DNA of 64,000 bases from Hydractinia symbiolongicarpus. Lineage: Eukaryota > Cnidaria > Hydrozoa > Anthoathecata > Hydractiniidae. This document shows, in pieces, positions 31,341 to 64,000 of this stretch (within the stretch, counting starts at the first letter, position 1; every line of letters begins with the position of its first letter). The position numbers and the translations under genes are program-made. The stretch covers positions 9,362,001 to 9,426,000 of the forward strand of contig NC_079887.1 of the NCBI RefSeq assembly GCF_029227915.1, written 5' to 3'. The notes below the pieces were generated by a model, which was not told the DNA's origin, ran no database searches, and saw only the letters and a list, made by a program, of their open reading frames with translations.

Positions 31341-53780
<22,440 letters not shown>

Positions 53781-54808
53781 GTTTTCAAAGTTTAAAATGA
53801 ACTATAGCAAGAGTCTAGCTAGCTATATATCAATGTTATCGTTAACGTCATTTATACTTCAAACTACATAAAAATAATATCATGGCCTTTTTACATGAAC
53901 AAAATCCTAAAAAAAATACTTCGTTTGTATATCAAACAACTAAGCTAAGGTTGTAGAGGATCCCAGCTATTACATTAGCTCGACAAAACTGCCATTTTGT
54001 AAACCTCTAAAAAATAAAACTGTCCCGCAAATGCGACATTAGGCACAAAATATGTATAGCTGTATTTTACTGACTTAGAAAAAATAAACAAGATTTAACC
54101 CGAGACCCGCATAACTTGCGTCTGTAAATTAAACATATTTTCAAAAACACCATAAATCCATTCTCTGATTGGTTCTTTCCGGATTTTGCTTATATTCCCA
54201 GCGGATATGAAAACTTGTACACATCGTCATCAATTATATGCCGGATATGAGGACAGTTTAACCTGATTCTATTTCCTAATATGATGTCTTCAAACTGTTT
54301 TTCCGCTCAAAATAGAAGATTTGCACTGGTAGCGAGTTTTTTCGCGGATTTTTGCATTGCGACCACAAATTATGTTGACGTTTTTTTAATAAAATTCGCT
54401 TCTCGTAATATAATTAGTCGCCGACATTGTGTTTTGCAATCACAACTCAGAAACTACGTTTTAATAATAATTACCGAAACACAAAAGAATTTTAATAACG
54501 AAAGCAAGGCTAATCTTTTTAGACCATTAAAAGAATTTTTTCTGCTGTAAGAATCCAGTTATTTTCTTAAATCATTATTTCTGGGTAACTTCCTATTCTT
54601 CATTCTGCCGTTACACTTTGACCTATCTCTTTCCTATACTATCCTGTACGGACAACAGCTTGTGAGGAATTTATAACGCAAAGAGGATAAAACAGTAGTA
54701 ACCGGGTGCTTTCTGTTTGTATATATATATTATATATATTAAGGATTCAAAATGTACAAAACGTAATAAAAGTTCAAAAAAAATTTAATCTTGAAAATTT
54801 ACAAAACA
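53781..54808 (-). promoter_or_regulatory. CIT upstream region with TATA-like box
   Basis: About 1 kb separates CIT from the NUDT9-type gene upstream on the same strand. On the minus strand TATAAAT lies at 53856-53850, about 70 bases before the ATG, next to a TGACGTTAAC (CRE-half-like) string. A 5' UTR of about 40 bases would follow. AT richness makes chance occurrence quite possible. Confidence 0.3.
54784..54789 (-). terminator. polyadenylation signal (ATTAAA) of the coiled-coil/NUDT9 gene
   Basis: ATTAAA on the minus strand about 20 bases after the stop at 54809, followed by T-rich then GTTTTG-type sequence. Reasonable but short 3' UTR. Confidence 0.4.
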
Positions 54809-57800
54809 TCAGTCTTCGTAATACGCTTGTTGTTGCTGGCACGTTGCTTTGATGAAATCCGCGTGACTTGCGTACAAAAGTAACTTTTTATCTATCGCAA
54901 TCCATTTCACGCCCTTCGCGTCGTCACCGTGATTTAACGGTAACTTGGCAACACTGTTGCCATTTTCGTCGTGATAATTAACAACAATCGTTTCCATCCA
55001 TGAATTATCGGTATTCCTAGGATCATCCACATAACCTTTATAAATCTAAAGTAAAAGAACTCATGTTACCATGGTGACGAACAAACGTCGCAAAGGAGTA
55101 GATAAGCAACAAGAAAGCATAAATTTTGCAAAGCCATTAGTCATTTTACTGAAAGGTTCATTTGCATTTCAAATGAGCAAAAATTCGTTTTTAGTTACTC
55201 GTTATAACGCACGTAGCGACATGTTTTCTTTTTCATAAATTTAGGTTTTGTCAATTTAAACTGGATTCGTTCCAAGAATTCAATGACACAATAAAAACAA
55301 CAATACAAACATTCTGTCGCTGACGTCGATTTGTTTTACAATGACGTGCTGTGACGACGTTTTGTCATGTTGATTACAAGTAAAACATGTAGCAGCAATT
55401 AGTGCAAATTACGTCAGCCGTTATGAAGTCGTAATGTGTTTATAAAAGATAGTAATAAACAAAAGAAACTAGCAAAAAAATATAATATATTAGCAGATTT
55501 TAGGAGGAGAGTTAGTTACTTAGAAAGTTTGTTTAGAGAAGTTGGTTATCAAGTCTTTTTTTAAAAATTTGTTATTAAGATATTCAGCCTCAAAGATAAC
55601 AATGTGACCTTGGAGGAAGAAATACGTATTCTGTGACCTTATACTGGCATTATTGATGATGCAATAAGTTAGTCAGCATAAAGCAGAGATTTTTAAAAAA
55701 CATCAAAAACAAAATTTAGGAGGTTTCATAATTATCTCATGTTTAATTTGAGGTAGATTAGTAACGCATCTATTTCCCTCTATAACATAAAAAGACACAT
55801 TTCGTGTTAGGGTTCCTTTAATTGTTTCGTTTTTTGATCATGATTTTTATTTCGACATCTCGCAGTAGCTGTATAAAATAATTCATCGCTGCTACTATCA
55901 GTTCTATTGAAAACTAAAGATACGCCTCATTTGTTTCACAAAATACTAACAAATAACTAACACATTATTACTGACACCCTGACACATACAGTATTTACTC
56001 TATTATTTCCACAATGAGGGGAGGGGGGGAGAGTTTACTAGAGATGTAAAATTATTTTATGAAATCAAAGTAGTATACCTTCAACGAAAGAAATTCAGCA
56101 AATTTTTAAAAAGGTCGCATAATTTTAATACGTAAAAAGCCACAAGAAACAAGGAAAATAAGTTGATTAGCACAAATATAACCCATGCAATGAAAAATAA
56201 AAATTTTACAACATTGAAATTTCAACATGCATTTGATGTGAGATCCTGATTATATTGGAGAAATTTTGGAGAACGACAATGACGACAATGACACAAACAC
56301 GATAGAAATAAACCGCAATCCCCTAAATGGAATATCAGAACAGGAGCATTTTTTATCAGCAGAATTATTTTTCAACACAACACAACCTCAAAAGACAGGG
56401 TAAAAGTATTAGAGTAAACACGGTATATACTAGCTGTTCTTTCTTTATAGCATATTTGATAAATCATATATTTTGGGTCCAAATTTAAGATTATTTGGGA
56501 AAAACTTTCATAACTGTCATAAATAATTACAACATCTTACCGTAACACCTTTCTGAAATAAGTTGTCTATGTTTGTTTTGAGATCTGCTATCACTTTCGG
56601 GTTCGCATCTAATAAATTCAACGCTTCTTCACTGAATTCTCTTTTTAAAGTTGCTGAAACATTCTCACCTGGATCAACCATGCCCTTAACAAATAAAAAC
56701 ACGAGAAATTATTACTACAACCATCAGGACTTAAACCTTTTTTAAGTGATTTTTTCGTTTCAGGATGTCCACTGTCCACTTATATAAAAAATGAAAAGCA
56801 TACGCAATACGGGACTTAGTAGAAAGTTTAAAATTCCTGATATTTTATATGAAAAAAAAATTTTCCTATCATTCTGTTTATAGTTATAAAATTCTTGACA
56901 ATTCCTGATGATCCAAATATTTTTGACATGTAGGTTTCCCGTACGTTTGCAGCATTTTCTGTCTATGGGACCTAGTAATAAGTTGTTATTGTAAATCTTC
57001 AGCTATTCGCAAAATATAATTAGATAAGGTAGCAAATTTCAAAGTTTAGAGCAATATAATTATATTGCGCAAAATAAATATATATAGGATACAAGGCTGA
57101 CACAATTTAAACTTGACAATGTTTATAGCAGACGTGAAACTTAAGATCTTACGTTATTTTGATAATTAAAAAATTTCGAGGCCTCTGGGCTCTGAAGCGA
57201 ATTTTTCTGTATTAGCGCGCATTTTACGCGGTATACCTAACATGTCTGCAACAAAGGGTCGTTGTCTCAATACTTACGTGGGTTGTAGCCTTGAAGTAAA
57301 GAGGGATTTCCAATTAGAAAATAAGCAAAATTGGGATCTACCGCGTTAAGTTAAAAGGGTGTCCGTTTCCAACTTATTACCTTAAAGTATATGGAGTAAG
57401 CATACTGTAAAATACGGATTATTTATACTTGGGGCCTAATTACACTTGAATTTTGTCTATCCCTTTGATTAGATAAAAGTCTTTTGACTTTTACCGGTAA
57501 AACTTTAATAAGCTATAAATATTTCACGATTATTTTTTACGTTTACGTACCGTTGTGAATAAAGCATTAAAAGTTATATAATTCACGAGTTACATTTGAA
57601 AAACAATATTAATAATTTACTAACTCCAGGAATAGCCCATTCGTCAGAATCTCTTCTTTGAATAGCTATAAACTCGAGAATCTTTTTTCCATGTTTCGTA
57701 ACAACACTACCATTTTCATTACGGAGCCAACTGAAAGGAAGAAAAAACGTTATTAGGAATTATCTTGACTTATCGCTTTAATTTCTGTGTTTTCTGACCT

Positions 57801-59918
57801 TGCATGATTTTTACAAAAAAATTAAACTACGCCAAAAAAACATGATTTTTTTGGGATTTTTTTACCATTATCACATGAAAATAGATGGATCTATTATCAG
57901 TGACAGCTAACACAGCTAACCTTGTGTGACAATACAATATTTCTCGTGATCATTTGTTTTGAAGTTAAAAATCTGAATGCAATCTCTTTAGAATGAATGG
58001 GAATTACAAAATATTGATCGCTACGCCACATAGCAACATCAAAACCTTAAAACTCAAACACATCGTGGTACGTATCAACGTGTACAAAACAAATTTACCG
58101 CGTGACGATGGGGTCAGCGGCGTGATTCGGCCCCCATCTACCTAACAATCCTCTTCCAATCATCCCAGTTCTTCCGATCGGATTTCTAAGACGGAAGATA
58201 AAAAAAAGGGTAGTAGTAGTAGTAGTAATAATAAAATGATAACTAATGTTATAGCACCACCAAACATTGTAATCCCAGGAACAATGGCACAAATGAGATT
58301 ATAAATTAAACAAAGTAGATAATTAAAGGTTACGTATGAATTAGTTAATCCGCAATTAGAAGATCTACAAGTACCTAAGTTGCTATAGTTACATTTTGTT
58401 GCCGTAGCAAGGGATTAGGCAAATCGTCTGAGCATGCAGCTAACAACACTCAATATAAAACATACGTGAGGTTTGGAACTAAGACCTTATTTGTCATAAC
58501 ATTAAAAAGTTTTGATATTCTTATCTTATTTCCTAACCAATTCATTCTTTTTTTTTGACCAAGCAGCAAAAGAGCCTGACTGTTACTTATTAAGTTATGA
58601 AAGACAGTTCGTCACCCAGTTGTGTTCACGTAAAAGCGCTATAATTTTTTTAACATTTTTTAAAGTTTGGTCAGCTGTTTGTGATAACGCTACTTTTACG
58701 CCATCGCATCAACAAACCAATACTAAGCAACTGCTCCGTCATGAAAACACTACTTTTTTCGAGGTAAAAGTCAGGTAATTTGCATTTAAATGCCAGTATT
58801 ACGAAGCAATTCATGTCAGGGCCCGCCAACGCCTGAAAAACTTAGAAACAGGGGTCTTGGTGGCAACGCGATATTTGTAAACCTTTGACTGAACTTACAC
58901 GATGTTTTCATGTTTTCTTAACTGTGCGTGCTTCAATGCTATGTAAGAACCATTGTGGTGACCTGCTAACTTCACATGTCATCACGTCACAAACAATAAA
59001 GTTGTCATGTTGAAAGGTAGATAAAGATAAATTTTACAGAAACATCATAATAGAATAACTGATTATGTTAAAATTATATATATTGTAAACACACGTATAA
59101 TGATTATATACAAACATACCTAGGGACACCATTGATGATTTTGTAATCCCCTCTATGACTTCGCCTATCTACTTTCCCATCTAGTGAGTTGAATTGCAAT
59201 GCTTCTTTTGTATCGCTAAACCAAACATACACATATTATTTTTTACAGATCTATTATAAAATCAATTGTTACACCCCCCCTCCCCCCCCCAAAAAAAACA
59301 ACAACTGGAATTGTGTTTAAGAGTATGTGAAACATAATGTTGAATAAATAAAAAACTGGTAATTAAAAAGCGTGTCATCTTGTCTTTTCTAGGGTGTAAG
59401 AATTGAGTTAATTTTCGTGGCGTGTACTCTGTTAACAAGATACCTAAGTGTAACTAAATTTAACCAGATAAAAAAGGGATTTCATTCACCATCTTGTGTT
59501 TAAACACAAAAATCTTTTGTTATTCTCACAAATAATAGTTGATTGTGTTTGCAAGATGAAAAAACTCGATTACACTGGAACCAAAGACATTCACACAAAT
59601 AACCATATATTTGAAGAAATACATACGTAATATCAGGATCCGCCCAAGCAGGTTTGTTTAGCACTTTACTCGACGTGTATGTGACAGGTGTGTATACCAT
59701 AAATTTGACATCCCACGAAACAAATTCTTGAGGAACAATAAACTTTTTTAAATTTGTCCCCAGATAATCTGGTCCCAATGCTTTTCTATGAAGTGGTTTT
59801 ATCCTAGATACAAGTTTGGAGGGTGAGTTTATGCTGTTAGTTCTAACGGCTGCAGCTCGTTGTTGTGACTGTTCTTCTTTATCAGGAACATATTCTTGTG
59901 GTGACTTTTTTTCACTTA
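54809..59918 (-). CDS. NUDT9: NUDT9 domain: ADP-ribose pyrophosphatase
   Basis: Exons 59627-59918, 59120-59215, 58099-58185, 57625-57730, 56541-56684, 54809-55045. The sequence follows human NUDT9 closely: [73 protein letters not shown], then the Nudix box [20 protein letters not shown], and [36 protein letters not shown]. The Nudix box keeps REFSEE; the TRPM2 channel version has lost these acids. Hydrolysis of ADP-ribose to AMP and ribose-5-phosphate is therefore expected. Human NUDT9 has a mitochondrial leader; here the N-terminus is replaced by coiled coil, so location is uncertain. There is no TRPM2 channel sequence nearby. Confidence 0.92.
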
Positions 59919-62900
59919 CTATGAAAAAAAAGAGAAAACAAACGTACTTTCGTGTTGCTGATAACTACTTTGTTTAAGAGAAAAACTTTAATTTATCTTA
60001 AATAATGGTTTCTTTTAACTGTTCTTTAACACGCTGCCCATAGCAGCAGAAACAGAACTGTCATATTTTTATGCAGTTATCTCATTGGTTTAGCATAGCA
60101 GGATAATTTTAACAAGACTTTTAAACAAAAAATAGATTGGGAAAAGATTTCTCTTTGTATAGACGCAAGCATTCTTTACATTTCTACCATTTCAACTCAT
60201 GTTTAATTTTTTTTCATAATTAATTTCATTTCTGTAATAATTCTTCAAAAGGATGGTTGTTATTCCGCATAATCTGTATTTATACAAATTTACCTGTGTT
60301 TTCTTCCATACTCTTATGAAGCTGGGCATGCTTTCGTTCCAACTTCATGTTTTCCTAGAAGAATTATTGGCTTCAGAATTTTAAAAATGACATGTTCCTG
60401 AGAAATGATTCCTTAGCCAAATAGGATTTGGTTGCATTAGTTTTTAGTGAATTTTTATTTCACTTAACCCTTAAAAAAATTTGATCATTTTTTATGAAAG
60501 GGGCAGGGAGTTAATAAACGAGGGATCAATCAAAAAGGATGAGCAAGGAGGTAACATAAATTACCGACTGCTAACATGTGTAATTTACCGAACTATACCT
60601 TAGTTGCTTGTGTCAACACCTTTTGTAACTTGGTCAATTCCATTGTTCGTTGATGCAACAAATGTGTGTTTCGTTGAGAGTCTAATTCGTAACGCTAGAA
60701 ATACAAAACAACATGATACTCTCCCACAATTTTTAACTGGATGTGGGTAAGAGGCTAAATATTTTGTCTAGGTGGAAGTGAGTGAGTGGGAGGGTAAGTG
60801 GTTGTGGGTGGGTAAGTGGTTGTGGGTGGGTAAGTGGTTGTGGGTGGGTAAGTGGTTGTGGGTGGGTAAGTGGTTGTGGGTGGGTAAGTGGTTGTGGGTG
60901 GGTAAGTGGTTGTGGGTGGGAGGGTATATATTTCTGCTGGGTATATATTTTTATTGGGTGTGCACACGGTTTAATACTAACACTAAATAAATAGTTTTGT
61001 TGCACAACATGTAAATAGGGCACCTGTTTAGGATAATATCTGGACAAATGAAAGCAAGAAGGTTAACGAGAAAACACAGATACCTGTAGAGAAACCTCTA
61101 ATTCCTGGACTCTATTTTCCAACTTTACGACTTCTGGTAACTATTAAAACATTATAAAATTTTAATAGAATATTTGTACATCAATGAAAATAAACAGAAA
61201 ACAAAGAGCCACAGTAGACAGTCCATAAACCCTGATACTTTGCAGAAACAATAACTTATGTCCTTCTGGGTGCTACTATTGTATTTCTTGTACTCACTGT
61301 GGAAAGAATAAGATAAAACATCAGTTATAAACAAACAATCAAACAAACAAAACCCCACAGTAATCAACTTGAAAAATACTCTACCAGTAATAAAAAGGAT
61401 GATGTAAACTTCAAGAATTGGCAAAAAAGTTGGTATCCATAAAAATAGAAATCGTCTTCTGTATTTAAAATCTGATTTAATTTGACGCTCAAAACACAAA
61501 CTACTCACACTATCCAGTGATGTTTCCTGATCATAATACGAGCTTTGTTTTAAAGAAGCATTTTCTTTACGTAGTTGCTGCACACGACTTTGCAAGTGAC
61601 GCAACAAGCGTGCTGATGTCGGTGAGCTGTCCACTGAATCAGCATTTTCATCAATAGTCTAAAGAAAAATATACGTGTCACATACTCACAAGGGAGGCAA
61701 TTCTAGTGTGATTAGTGTATCACACCACATATTTTAGAACAGACGGAAAAGAAGTTTAGCAAACTGTGGTTAACCGCAGATATCTTTAGAAACCTGTTGC
61801 ATCACACAATTCACAAGATTTTTTTCACCTTATTAAAAATAGTGGCTTCAAAATTATTTAGTATTCAAAGGCATACAGAAGTCGAAATTTCCTGGACTCT
61901 CCATAACATTCATAAAAAATCGCCTAATTCCTAGTTTTTCAGAGTTCCATAATTTACAGACCTGCTCATGGTTTTGCAAACTTTCATTTGCATGTTGCAA
62001 TGATAGAACATAATGACGTATATTTTCCACATTATCTTTCAGCAGGTTCTATAACATTGTTGAATATAATTTATTCAGGTTTACAATACTGAACATTGTT
62101 TCAAAGAAGTTTGCTCATACACTGGGTATTGTCCATCGAATAGAATCAAAGCCTCAATTTAAACTTTCATCAAAAAAAACATAACATAACAACAAGGAAA
62201 AGATAAAAATAGTAAAGAACCAAAAAAGACTCTTCAAAAGAGGTCTTACAAAGCTACAATGAAACAAAAGAGCAAGCTCTCATAGTTATAAACATTTGTT
62301 TTGTAACCATAATTACTATTGGACAATTTAGTCTACCTAAACTGTTCAAAAAGAAAAAACAAAAGGGTTAAACTTTTAAACAATCTTTTGTTTGTTTCTG
62401 CGCAATCCTAAAGTCTACAATTCCAAAAAACTTGTTGACTTTCCCAATCAAGCATCTATTTTTCTAATGGTTTAACAATCTTTCCTGTTGTATTAGAAAT
62501 TTACATTAATTTATTGCATATTCATTTTTATTAAATTTAAGCATACAACAAAGACATAATTTAATTTAACGACTTAAAATCTTTTTAAGAATTAGTGTTA
62601 GAAGAGCTGTTTAGACATCTGGAGATATTGGAATTCAAAATTTTCCTCTGGAAAACTCTCAAAATAATTCTTAATTAAACCAAACGATGCAAATTTCTAG
62701 CTAATATCCTGATAACTAAAATGAAATTTACTTACAACTGCATCTGTTACAATATTTCCACTCTTGCCATCATTCGCAGGAGATGAACTAACAAAATTTA
62801 ACAAAACAAAAATTCTTTTCCCAACATTTGGAGTTGAAATTGACACTTCTAGTAAATACACAACTAGAGTTGACACTAATTATCCTAGATACCCCTAACT

Positions 62901-64000
62901 TTTGCCATATTCCTATGTTCGCCTTAAGAATCACATCCTATTTCTTATTAAACATCCAGCTGTATGCAACTCTGATAGCTTTTGTAATAGATTGTTTTAC
63001 TACCTACAACTAGACAACTTAGGGCAACTTTATAGAGATTCTTTACATTCGTAAAATGTCGGAATCTTTAATAAGCAGAACAAAAATTAGCACAACAAGA
63101 TTTCAATCAACGTCAACAACATTATAGCCAACAAAGTTTAAATGACTGCACTCCTCATCCCCATTGTTAATGGCAGCACTCAAATACACTCATGATAAAG
63201 ATGGCAACATTTTTGGATTTATGAGTTATGTGATTTTTATTTTGTTAAATAAAACATGCATGCTGTTGACTCATTGACTAAACTTTCTAAGCTGTAATAG
63301 GTGCTGCAGTGAGAGAAAAAATATTACACACATTCCCAGTACTAATGTAGTAGTAACTTTAGCATCTCTGTACTACCTCAACACACCTTTTAATAGAACT
63401 TCCAACAATCACAGCCAATTTTGTATTTTCTTCAATAAGATCGAGGGCTATAGTTTTCAGAAATTTCTCAGTCTAACGAAAAAAAACAGTACATTGTTTA
63501 ATAATAAAATGTTAAAACAAAATTTAGATAAAAAGCATCTTAAAATTTCAATGCTAAATTTAACAACAGGATAATAACTGTTTTTAAAGGACATTTGCAG
63601 CTAAAATATAAAAATACAACATAATGAGAAAACACCTGCTGCAATTTTTCTTTTACTGCGATGTATGCTTTATCTTCTTCTATGTTCTTCATGTAAGTTT
63701 CTTGGGAGACAGAAGAAAATTCTAGTCGTAAGTTTTGAACTTCCTTTTGGCTGTCCTCTAAATCCTAAAATTGATTCCAAAATAAGCTAAATTATAAAAA
63801 TTATTTTTTGTAAGTCTTGACGTCAACCTGTACGTCATAACGTCAACCTGTTCTAAATGCACACCTGTTTTAGCTTGAGATTTGTTGACTTCAAAGCTTC
63901 TAAATTGATTTTAAAACGATCACATTCCAGAGAATGCTGTTTTTTTATTTTTACTTTTTGACTTTGTTCTCTTGTGAGACTTTCCTTTAGCTGATCTAAT
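54809..64000 (-). CDS. coiled-coil protein fused to NUDT9-type ADP-ribose hydrolase (5' end beyond window)
   Basis: Fifteen visible exons on the minus strand, all GT-AG, all phases agreeing, totalling 605 codons with the stop after one leading partial base. The first nine exons are coiled coil, the last six a complete NUDT9 domain. The join (donor at 60294, acceptor at 59918) is phase 1 and in frame: ..[18 protein letters not shown]... The first NUDT9 exon has no in-frame ATG before the conserved domain, so it must be spliced to something upstream. A short unseen alternative first exon in intron 59919-60293 or further away remains possible. Neighbour CIT follows 1 kb downstream on the same strand. 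Confidence 0.75.
58210..58234. repeat. short (TAG)n/(TAA)n microsatellite
   Basis: About six GTA units then a few ATA units, in an intron of the NUDT9 part just upstream of exon 58099-58185. Confidence 0.8.
59273..59297. repeat. poly-C/poly-A tract
   Basis: C7-T-C10 followed by A8 in the intron between exons 59627 and 59215; homopolymers of this size are prone to sequencing error. Confidence 0.8.
60294..64000 (-). CDS. coiled-coil N-terminal part (family not recognised), partial
   Basis: Exons 63865-64000 (partial), 63636-63764, 63387-63472, 62736-62787, 61962-62048, 61509-61658, 61084-61140, 60599-60694, 60294-60354; about 284 residues. Heptad-like segments: [91 protein letters not shown]. 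Two hydrophilic linkers interrupt them ([24 protein letters not shown]). It has no visible catalytic motif. It might belong to a centrosomal or cytoskeletal protein, but nothing allows a name. Confidence 0.7.
60782..60925. repeat. 18-bp G-rich minisatellite, ~8 units, intronic
   Basis: Unit GTGGGTGGGTAAGTGGTT repeated almost perfectly, in the intron between exons 61084 and 60694. Each unit has two GGG runs, so neighbouring units could form G-quadruplexes on the plus strand. Frames stay open on both strands only because 18 is a multiple of three. Confidence 0.9.

Follow-up and report, generated by a model that had tools for sequence, protein, structure and literature searches.

A probable hydrozoan gene fusion joining a cnidarian coiled coil to a duplicated NUDT9 in Hydractinia symbiolongicarpus

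According to the available text of PMC13143021 and PMC6461439, NUDT9 is found either in mitochondria or, as a C-terminal domain, in TRPM and TRPS channels; the initial annotation of the DNA described here had named it alone and in TRPM2, which agrees with these sources, TRPS being a further host protein. The Nudix consensus tied to activity is REUXEE, and NUDT9 itself has REFGEE; active cnidarian and choanoflagellate forms carry AEFGEE and REFMEE, inactive human TRPM2 carries RILRQE, and invertebrate TRPM2 has a canonical Nudix box (available portions of PMC6461439). The literature found on NUDT9 and cnidaria is concerned, by title, with TRP/TRPM channels, apart from a leech sensory transcriptome. 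NUDT9 combined with gene fusion and coiled-coil gave, by listing, only a swine virus proteome paper, Nudix combined with coiled-coil, domain fusion and metazoa gave nothing in the literature searched, and NUDT9 or ADP-ribose pyrophosphatase combined with Hydractinia gave nothing in a literature that included few subscription papers. Furthermore, a broader NUDT9 search had none on this fusion by title among the matches listed (best 8 of 27). No description of a coil-NUDT9 architecture was found in this literature, which subscription papers largely lie outside, and within it the architecture seems to be undescribed; the protein sequence itself is already in public databases.

The window, by which we mean the whole stretch of 64,000 nucleotides that was analysed, quite probably carries the 3' part of an inherited hydrozoan fusion gene, in which a coil was spliced before its ancestral stop onto a duplicated NUDT9 to give a scaffold-tethered ADP-ribose pyrophosphatase. 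On the minus strand, between 63999 and 54809, 15 exons form one open chain with GT/AG borders and agreeing phases, and encode 604 codons and a stop over a genomic span of 9.2 kb; nine of them belong to the coiled coil (63999-60294) and six to NUDT9 (59918-54809). The features are as follows.

63865..63999, minus strand: coil exon 1 in the window, residues 428-472 of the database protein P0001; the gene continues beyond 64000
63636..63764, minus strand: coil exon 2 in the window, placed by the exon chain and tblastn of P0001
63387..63472, minus strand: coil exon 3 in the window, placed by the exon chain and tblastn of P0001
62736..62787, minus strand: coil exon 4 in the window, short, with 17 protein letters, placed by the exon chain and tblastn of P0001
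61962..62048, minus strand: coil exon 5 in the window, placed by the exon chain and tblastn of P0001
61509..61658, minus strand: coil exon 6 in the window, with the most conserved motif, LLRHLQxRVQQLRxEN, from the alignment
61084..61140, minus strand: coil exon 7 in the window, placed by the exon chain and tblastn of P0001
60599..60694, minus strand: coil exon 8 in the window, holding a 12-letter block, placed by the exon chain, the alignment and tblastn
60294..60354, minus strand: coil exon 9, the last, whose end corresponds to the C-terminus of coral coil-only proteins
59919..60293, minus strand: junction intron (intron 9) from coil to NUDT9, 375 bp
59627..59918, minus strand: NUDT9 exon 1 (exon 10), with the linker (P0001 713-759, low model confidence) and the start of the NUDT9 domain
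59120..59215, minus strand: NUDT9 exon 2, placed by the exon chain and tblastn of P0001
58099..58185, minus strand: NUDT9 exon 3, placed by the exon chain and tblastn of P0001
57625..57730, minus strand: NUDT9 exon 4, placed by the exon chain and tblastn of P0001
56541..56684, minus strand: NUDT9 exon 5, with the Nudix box REFSEE
54809..55045, minus strand: NUDT9 exon 6, with the stop codon and a 15-letter motif

The gene runs on past 64000, with a further 427 residues encoded outside the window and its start upstream of it. Exon ends in the coil part are mostly in phase 0 (phase 2 once), the 60294/59918 junction is in phase 1, and the borders after it are in phase 2 three times and then in phase 0. 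Phase agreement at one such junction is about a 1-in-3 event, and 256 alternative open chains, all in one frame, can be drawn via nearby splice sites (counted without exon 62787-62736); for these two reasons the open chain taken alone is weak evidence for the gene model, and independent evidence was therefore sought. There is no in-frame ATG ahead of the NUDT9 domain in exon 10, the sole methionine of that exon lying inside the domain, and the frame upstream of 59918 reaches a stop without a methionine (40 codons displayed). The initial annotation had described nine coil and six NUDT9 exons in one chain of 605 codons, which equals the 604 codons plus stop, and had pointed out that an in-frame start is missing from the first NUDT9 exon and that the adjacent coil exon fits it; its account of the locus stands on all these points, phases and GT/AG borders agreeing at the junction. 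The continuation past 64000, the in-frame ATGs of exon 9 and the read-through stop of intron 9 go beyond that account. Two side features of the region may be recorded. Intron 7 of the fusion gene contains a minisatellite (60786-60920, an 18-base unit in 7.5 copies with 99% matches), and part (53592-53780) of a minus-strand ORF at 53481-53801, some 1 kb past the NUDT9 stop, is weakly similar (E 0.005) to the N-terminus of an MRCK-type kinase (PDB 4uak); the ORF may be the opening exon of the neighbouring gene.

A search of a database of about 5.8 billion proteins with the 604-residue chain returned P0001, a protein of 1031 aa with 100% identity along the full 604 residues, whose residues 428-1031 map by tblastn onto the 15 exons; P0001 may itself be a gene prediction. 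Its N-terminus is an acidic, serine-rich stretch that to the eye is unlike a mitochondrial presequence, and NUDIX is its only Pfam domain at E up to 0.1. The AlphaFold2 model of P0001, built from a 23-row alignment, is poor overall (mean pLDDT 60.5, pTM 0.33) and too low in confidence for docking or fold search; it has a long helix at 227-538, further helices that end at 712, next to the junction, a stretch with pLDDT under 50 at residues 713-759, and a Nudix part of mixed strands and helices. On this model the low-confidence N-terminus is probably disordered, and so, probably, is the linker of about 45 residues between coil and NUDT9; the long coiled coil presumably self-associates.

The join is not confined to P0001. 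P0002 (731 aa, on a 3,891-bp contig) and P0005 (455 aa, on a 2,050-bp contig) both have the coil followed in frame by NUDT9, with 47% identity over 100% of the query and 45% identity over 78% respectively, and as contigs of this size are too short for the 9.2 kb over which the 604 codons extend in the window the two records are probably transcripts. Because both carry the same join, the fusion seems genuine and inherited; transcription of the fusion in Hydractinia symbiolongicarpus we infer. The coil/NUDT9 fusion put forward in the initial annotation is hence backed by three proteins, by a single clade of their NUDT9 domains and by coral coils that end at the junction, and the BLASTp-type check on the joined protein that it had proposed found P0001 together with the two further fusion proteins. 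By BLAST the coil half is present in three of 120 NUDT9 proteins (P0001, P0002 and P0005), these being the best 120 of 420 matches above threshold, with scoring limited to the 7,993 candidates that had most words in common with the query, and the NUDT9 half is present in none of the 17 coil proteins P0121-P0137.

A search with the coil-linker region of P0002 found, besides P0002 itself, P0001, P0136 and Clytia P0137, the last two without NUDT9. P0136, a coil relative on a 4.8-kb contig, has no NUDT9 at its end and a tail of another kind, and NUDT9 is also absent from the Clytia models P0134 and P0137, the latter stopping early; the fusion is therefore not universal in the group, or these models have been cut short. 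The C-terminus of P0136 (8 member sequences) after the LLRHLQ block is unlike the coral end and unlike the fusion, and may mark a loss of NUDT9 or a lineage from before the fusion. Clytia P0134 has between its coil segments a PF00078 domain, which we take to be a reverse transcriptase and which is probably a transposon absorbed into the gene model, and the model was left out as gene-structure evidence. The high scores of P0003, P0004 and P0006 (fluke, fish and brachiopod) had suggested a wider spread of the fusion, which was rejected as these sequences contain repeated NUDT9 segments and, by BLAST, no coil half. Two further NUDT9 models have extra Pfam domains, sea urchin P0105 (PF00538) and P0027 (presumably ferredoxin-type domains), and would be merged models or else additional NUDT9 fusions.

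The coil half has named relatives in Oculina, Stylophora, Montipora, Actinostola and Clytia, and in corals it occurs as a separate protein. Membership of what we call the cnidarian LLRHLQ coiled-coil family, a name coined in this analysis, was judged on two blocks, LLRHLQxRVQQLR and the C-terminal TKLQKxLTxATKEN, both of which are present in P0001 by alignment and BLAST. When compared with the 21 letters that precede the junction here, nine of 14 aligned coil-only proteins end in KENMKLERAYASLQRKIIDNSR or at most one letter off it, and the local alignments of these nine run as far as P0001 residue 711, encoded by the final complete codon of exon 9 ahead of the junction, and stop one residue short of their own C-terminus. 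The query in this alignment reached P0001 residue 752, 41 residues past the junction. P0133, with a different ending, aligns up to 713 and also stops one residue short of its own end, and the other four (P0134, P0135, P0136 and P0137) end earlier, P0135 being a partial record. P0124, P0128 and P0132 stood outside this alignment; in BLAST with a query cut at 711, which therefore itself sets the 711 ends, P0124 and P0128 reach 711 and P0132 reaches 707. Since the alignments of nine coil-only proteins end at 711, one residue before the proteins' own ends, the junction lies, as judged from these alignments, at the ancestral stop of the coil gene. No Pfam family was above cut-off in the four coil-only proteins scanned, and a PDB search with a 9-row coil profile (eight coil-only proteins and P0001) returned no chain at E up to 0.001. 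Pfam matches of the coil to bHLH_IRO3, Hairy_orange, DUF641, USHBP1 and SF3a60 were set aside as all under the curated cut-offs, as was the CDK5RAP2 CM1 construct as a PDB relative, a weak match at E 0.16.

The NUDT9 half of the chain, residues 328-603, aligns over 276 residues with residues 4-282 of human NUDT9 (1q33) at E 1e-95, the N-terminal subdomain included, and also aligns with the NUDT9-H domain of TRPM2. Its Nudix box, REFSEE in exon 56684-56541, is intact, and a box of the form REFxEE is found in 118 of the 120 NUDT9 proteins (best 120 of 420 matches). As REFSEE fits the REUXEE consensus, the enzyme half should be active by the yardstick in the available text of PMC6461439. Hydractinia symbiolongicarpus also has a separate stand-alone NUDT9-like protein, P0007, with 57.5% identity in the domain; by tblastn P0007 matches only the same six NUDT9 exons, with no sign of a second NUDT9 copy in the window. 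Judged by eye, the start of P0007, MGNLFGCKP, is unlike a mitochondrial presequence and is reminiscent of a lipid anchor.

Two trees were built from the NUDT9 domains. The first comprised 44 domains picked by hand from the best 120 of 420 matches, with TRPM2 absent, and placed the three fusion domains (P0001, P0002 and P0005) in one clade (100/93), sister to a group of 11 other NUDT9s (98/95) whose named members, Hydractinia P0007 and Clytia P0116, are both hydrozoan; the two groups together received 95/86. For the second, of 38 rows, P0003, P0036, P0039, P0081, P0090, P0094, P0098 and P0115 were removed and the Nematostella TRPM2 NUDT9-H and human NUDT9 added; the fusion trio was recovered at 98/95, the 11 NUDT9s at 96/93 and the wider group at 93/92. 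P0005 has a long branch and its position inside the trio is uncertain. At p-AU 0.0066 the data reject a tree in which P0001 and P0002 group with Hydractinia P0007 and P0108; given that P0005 was left out, the trio was broken and the group was chosen after the tree, this tests only weakly for a local copy of P0007. The simplest history consistent with these trees would be a duplication of NUDT9 before the Hydractinia-Clytia split followed by one fusion, an order of events that we infer.

The intron at the junction bears on two other readings of the locus. The first, which is compatible with the fusion gene and which we regard as possible but on balance doubtful, is that both products are made, the coil alone by retention of intron 9 or early polyadenylation and the fusion by splicing. 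When exon 9 is read through into intron 9 a stop follows after four codons (GKFV), and the resulting end, ENTGKFV, would approximately restore the length of the coral coil C-terminus, which is suggestive only; an early stop of this kind is however not unusual here, since read-through meets a stop within 13 codons in 10 of the window's 14 introns, among them intron 9. The second, which appears improbable, is that prediction has merged two neighbouring genes, the coil gene ending at the GKFV stop in intron 9 and NUDT9 having a hidden first exon of its own. The read-through stop, the two ATTAAA motifs in intron 9 (at 60207 and 59992), the coral coil proteins ending at exactly this place, the in-frame ATGs in exon 9 (residues 267 and 280 of the 604) and the modest weight of a single phase agreement would all suit separate genes. 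However, P0002 and P0005 share the in-frame join on their short contigs at 45-47% identity, the NUDT9 halves of the trio form one clade, exon 10 has no start codon ahead of the domain, and ATTAAA is, on our impression, unsurprising in such AT-rich DNA. That the NUDT9 half derives from part of a TRPM2-type channel gene and not from a NUDT9 duplicate is most improbable, for whilst the C-terminal part of TRPM2 also has coiled-coil helices (available text of PMC6461439) and a tree joining the trio to the Nematostella TRPM2 NUDT9-H is not rejected (second tree, p-AU 0.18), no TRPM2 chain matches the coil half, since in the PDB such matches fall within query residues 313-602, the best trees join the fusions to the 11 other NUDT9s, and human NUDT9 scores 325 bits against 288 bits for Nematostella TRPM2.

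Under the preferred reading of a single inherited fusion, the coil seems to have been spliced before its stop onto NUDT9, because the trio is one clade, the coral coils are separate proteins and their alignments end at 711. Splicing would have deprived an old cnidarian coiled-coil gene of its own end, a donor immediately ahead of the ancestral stop codon being linked to the opening exon of a NUDT9 duplicate that lay downstream, and the product of ~1031 residues would consist of an N-terminus, a long coiled coil, a linker and a NUDT9-type Nudix hydrolase. The NUDT9-like domain, the REFSEE box and an N-terminus unlike a presequence lead us to propose a scaffold-tethered, non-mitochondrial ADP-ribose hydrolase, which would convert ADP-ribose to AMP and ribose 5-phosphate at the site of the coil; its cell site, oligomer state and activity are here predictions from sequence, and from the intact Nudix box it is plausible that an active hydrolase is held at a chosen place in the cell. 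More speculatively, and we think rather unlikely, a hydrozoan lineage may have made a new class of scaffold-bound ADP-ribose hydrolases in which the same gene still yields either the coil alone, when the junction intron is kept, or the coil with its enzyme. If both forms are made, splicing would decide whether ADP-ribose is removed at the scaffold.

The locus adds a further kind of host protein to those in which NUDT9 occurs, and its presence in three divergent sequences, with the active-site box intact, suggests that selection can favour clearing free ADP-ribose locally at places other than mitochondria and channels. The junction would also illustrate cleanly how splicing around an ancestral stop codon can fuse two genes. 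Tagging and knock-out are feasible in Hydractinia, a genetic model for which gene knock-in is reported in the available part of PMC6122657 and RNA-seq runs are listed in PMC10411563.

When set beside known systems, the fusion resembles the cnidarian coil proteins (Oculina P0123, Stylophora P0127 and Montipora P0130) in SDDT and KVREG motifs at the N-terminal end (a comparison by eye), in the LLRHLQxRVQQLR block and in the TKLQKxLTxATKEN..LER end, whereas those proteins stop at the junction and have no NUDT9 half. With NUDT9, the mitochondrial ADP-ribose pyrophosphatase, it shares the 276-residue alignment to 1q33 and a Nudix box of the REFxEE form, but its enzyme follows a mostly coiled-coil part of 711 residues and belongs in the trees to a lineage apart from P0007. 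Finally, like the TRPM2/TRPM chanzymes it is a larger protein that carries a NUDT9-type domain C-terminally; unlike them, P0001 has only NUDIX in Pfam, the melastatin and channel domains are absent upstream of NUDT9 (Pfam at E up to 0.1 and PDB chains), and TRPM2 chains in the PDB match the NUDT9 part alone.
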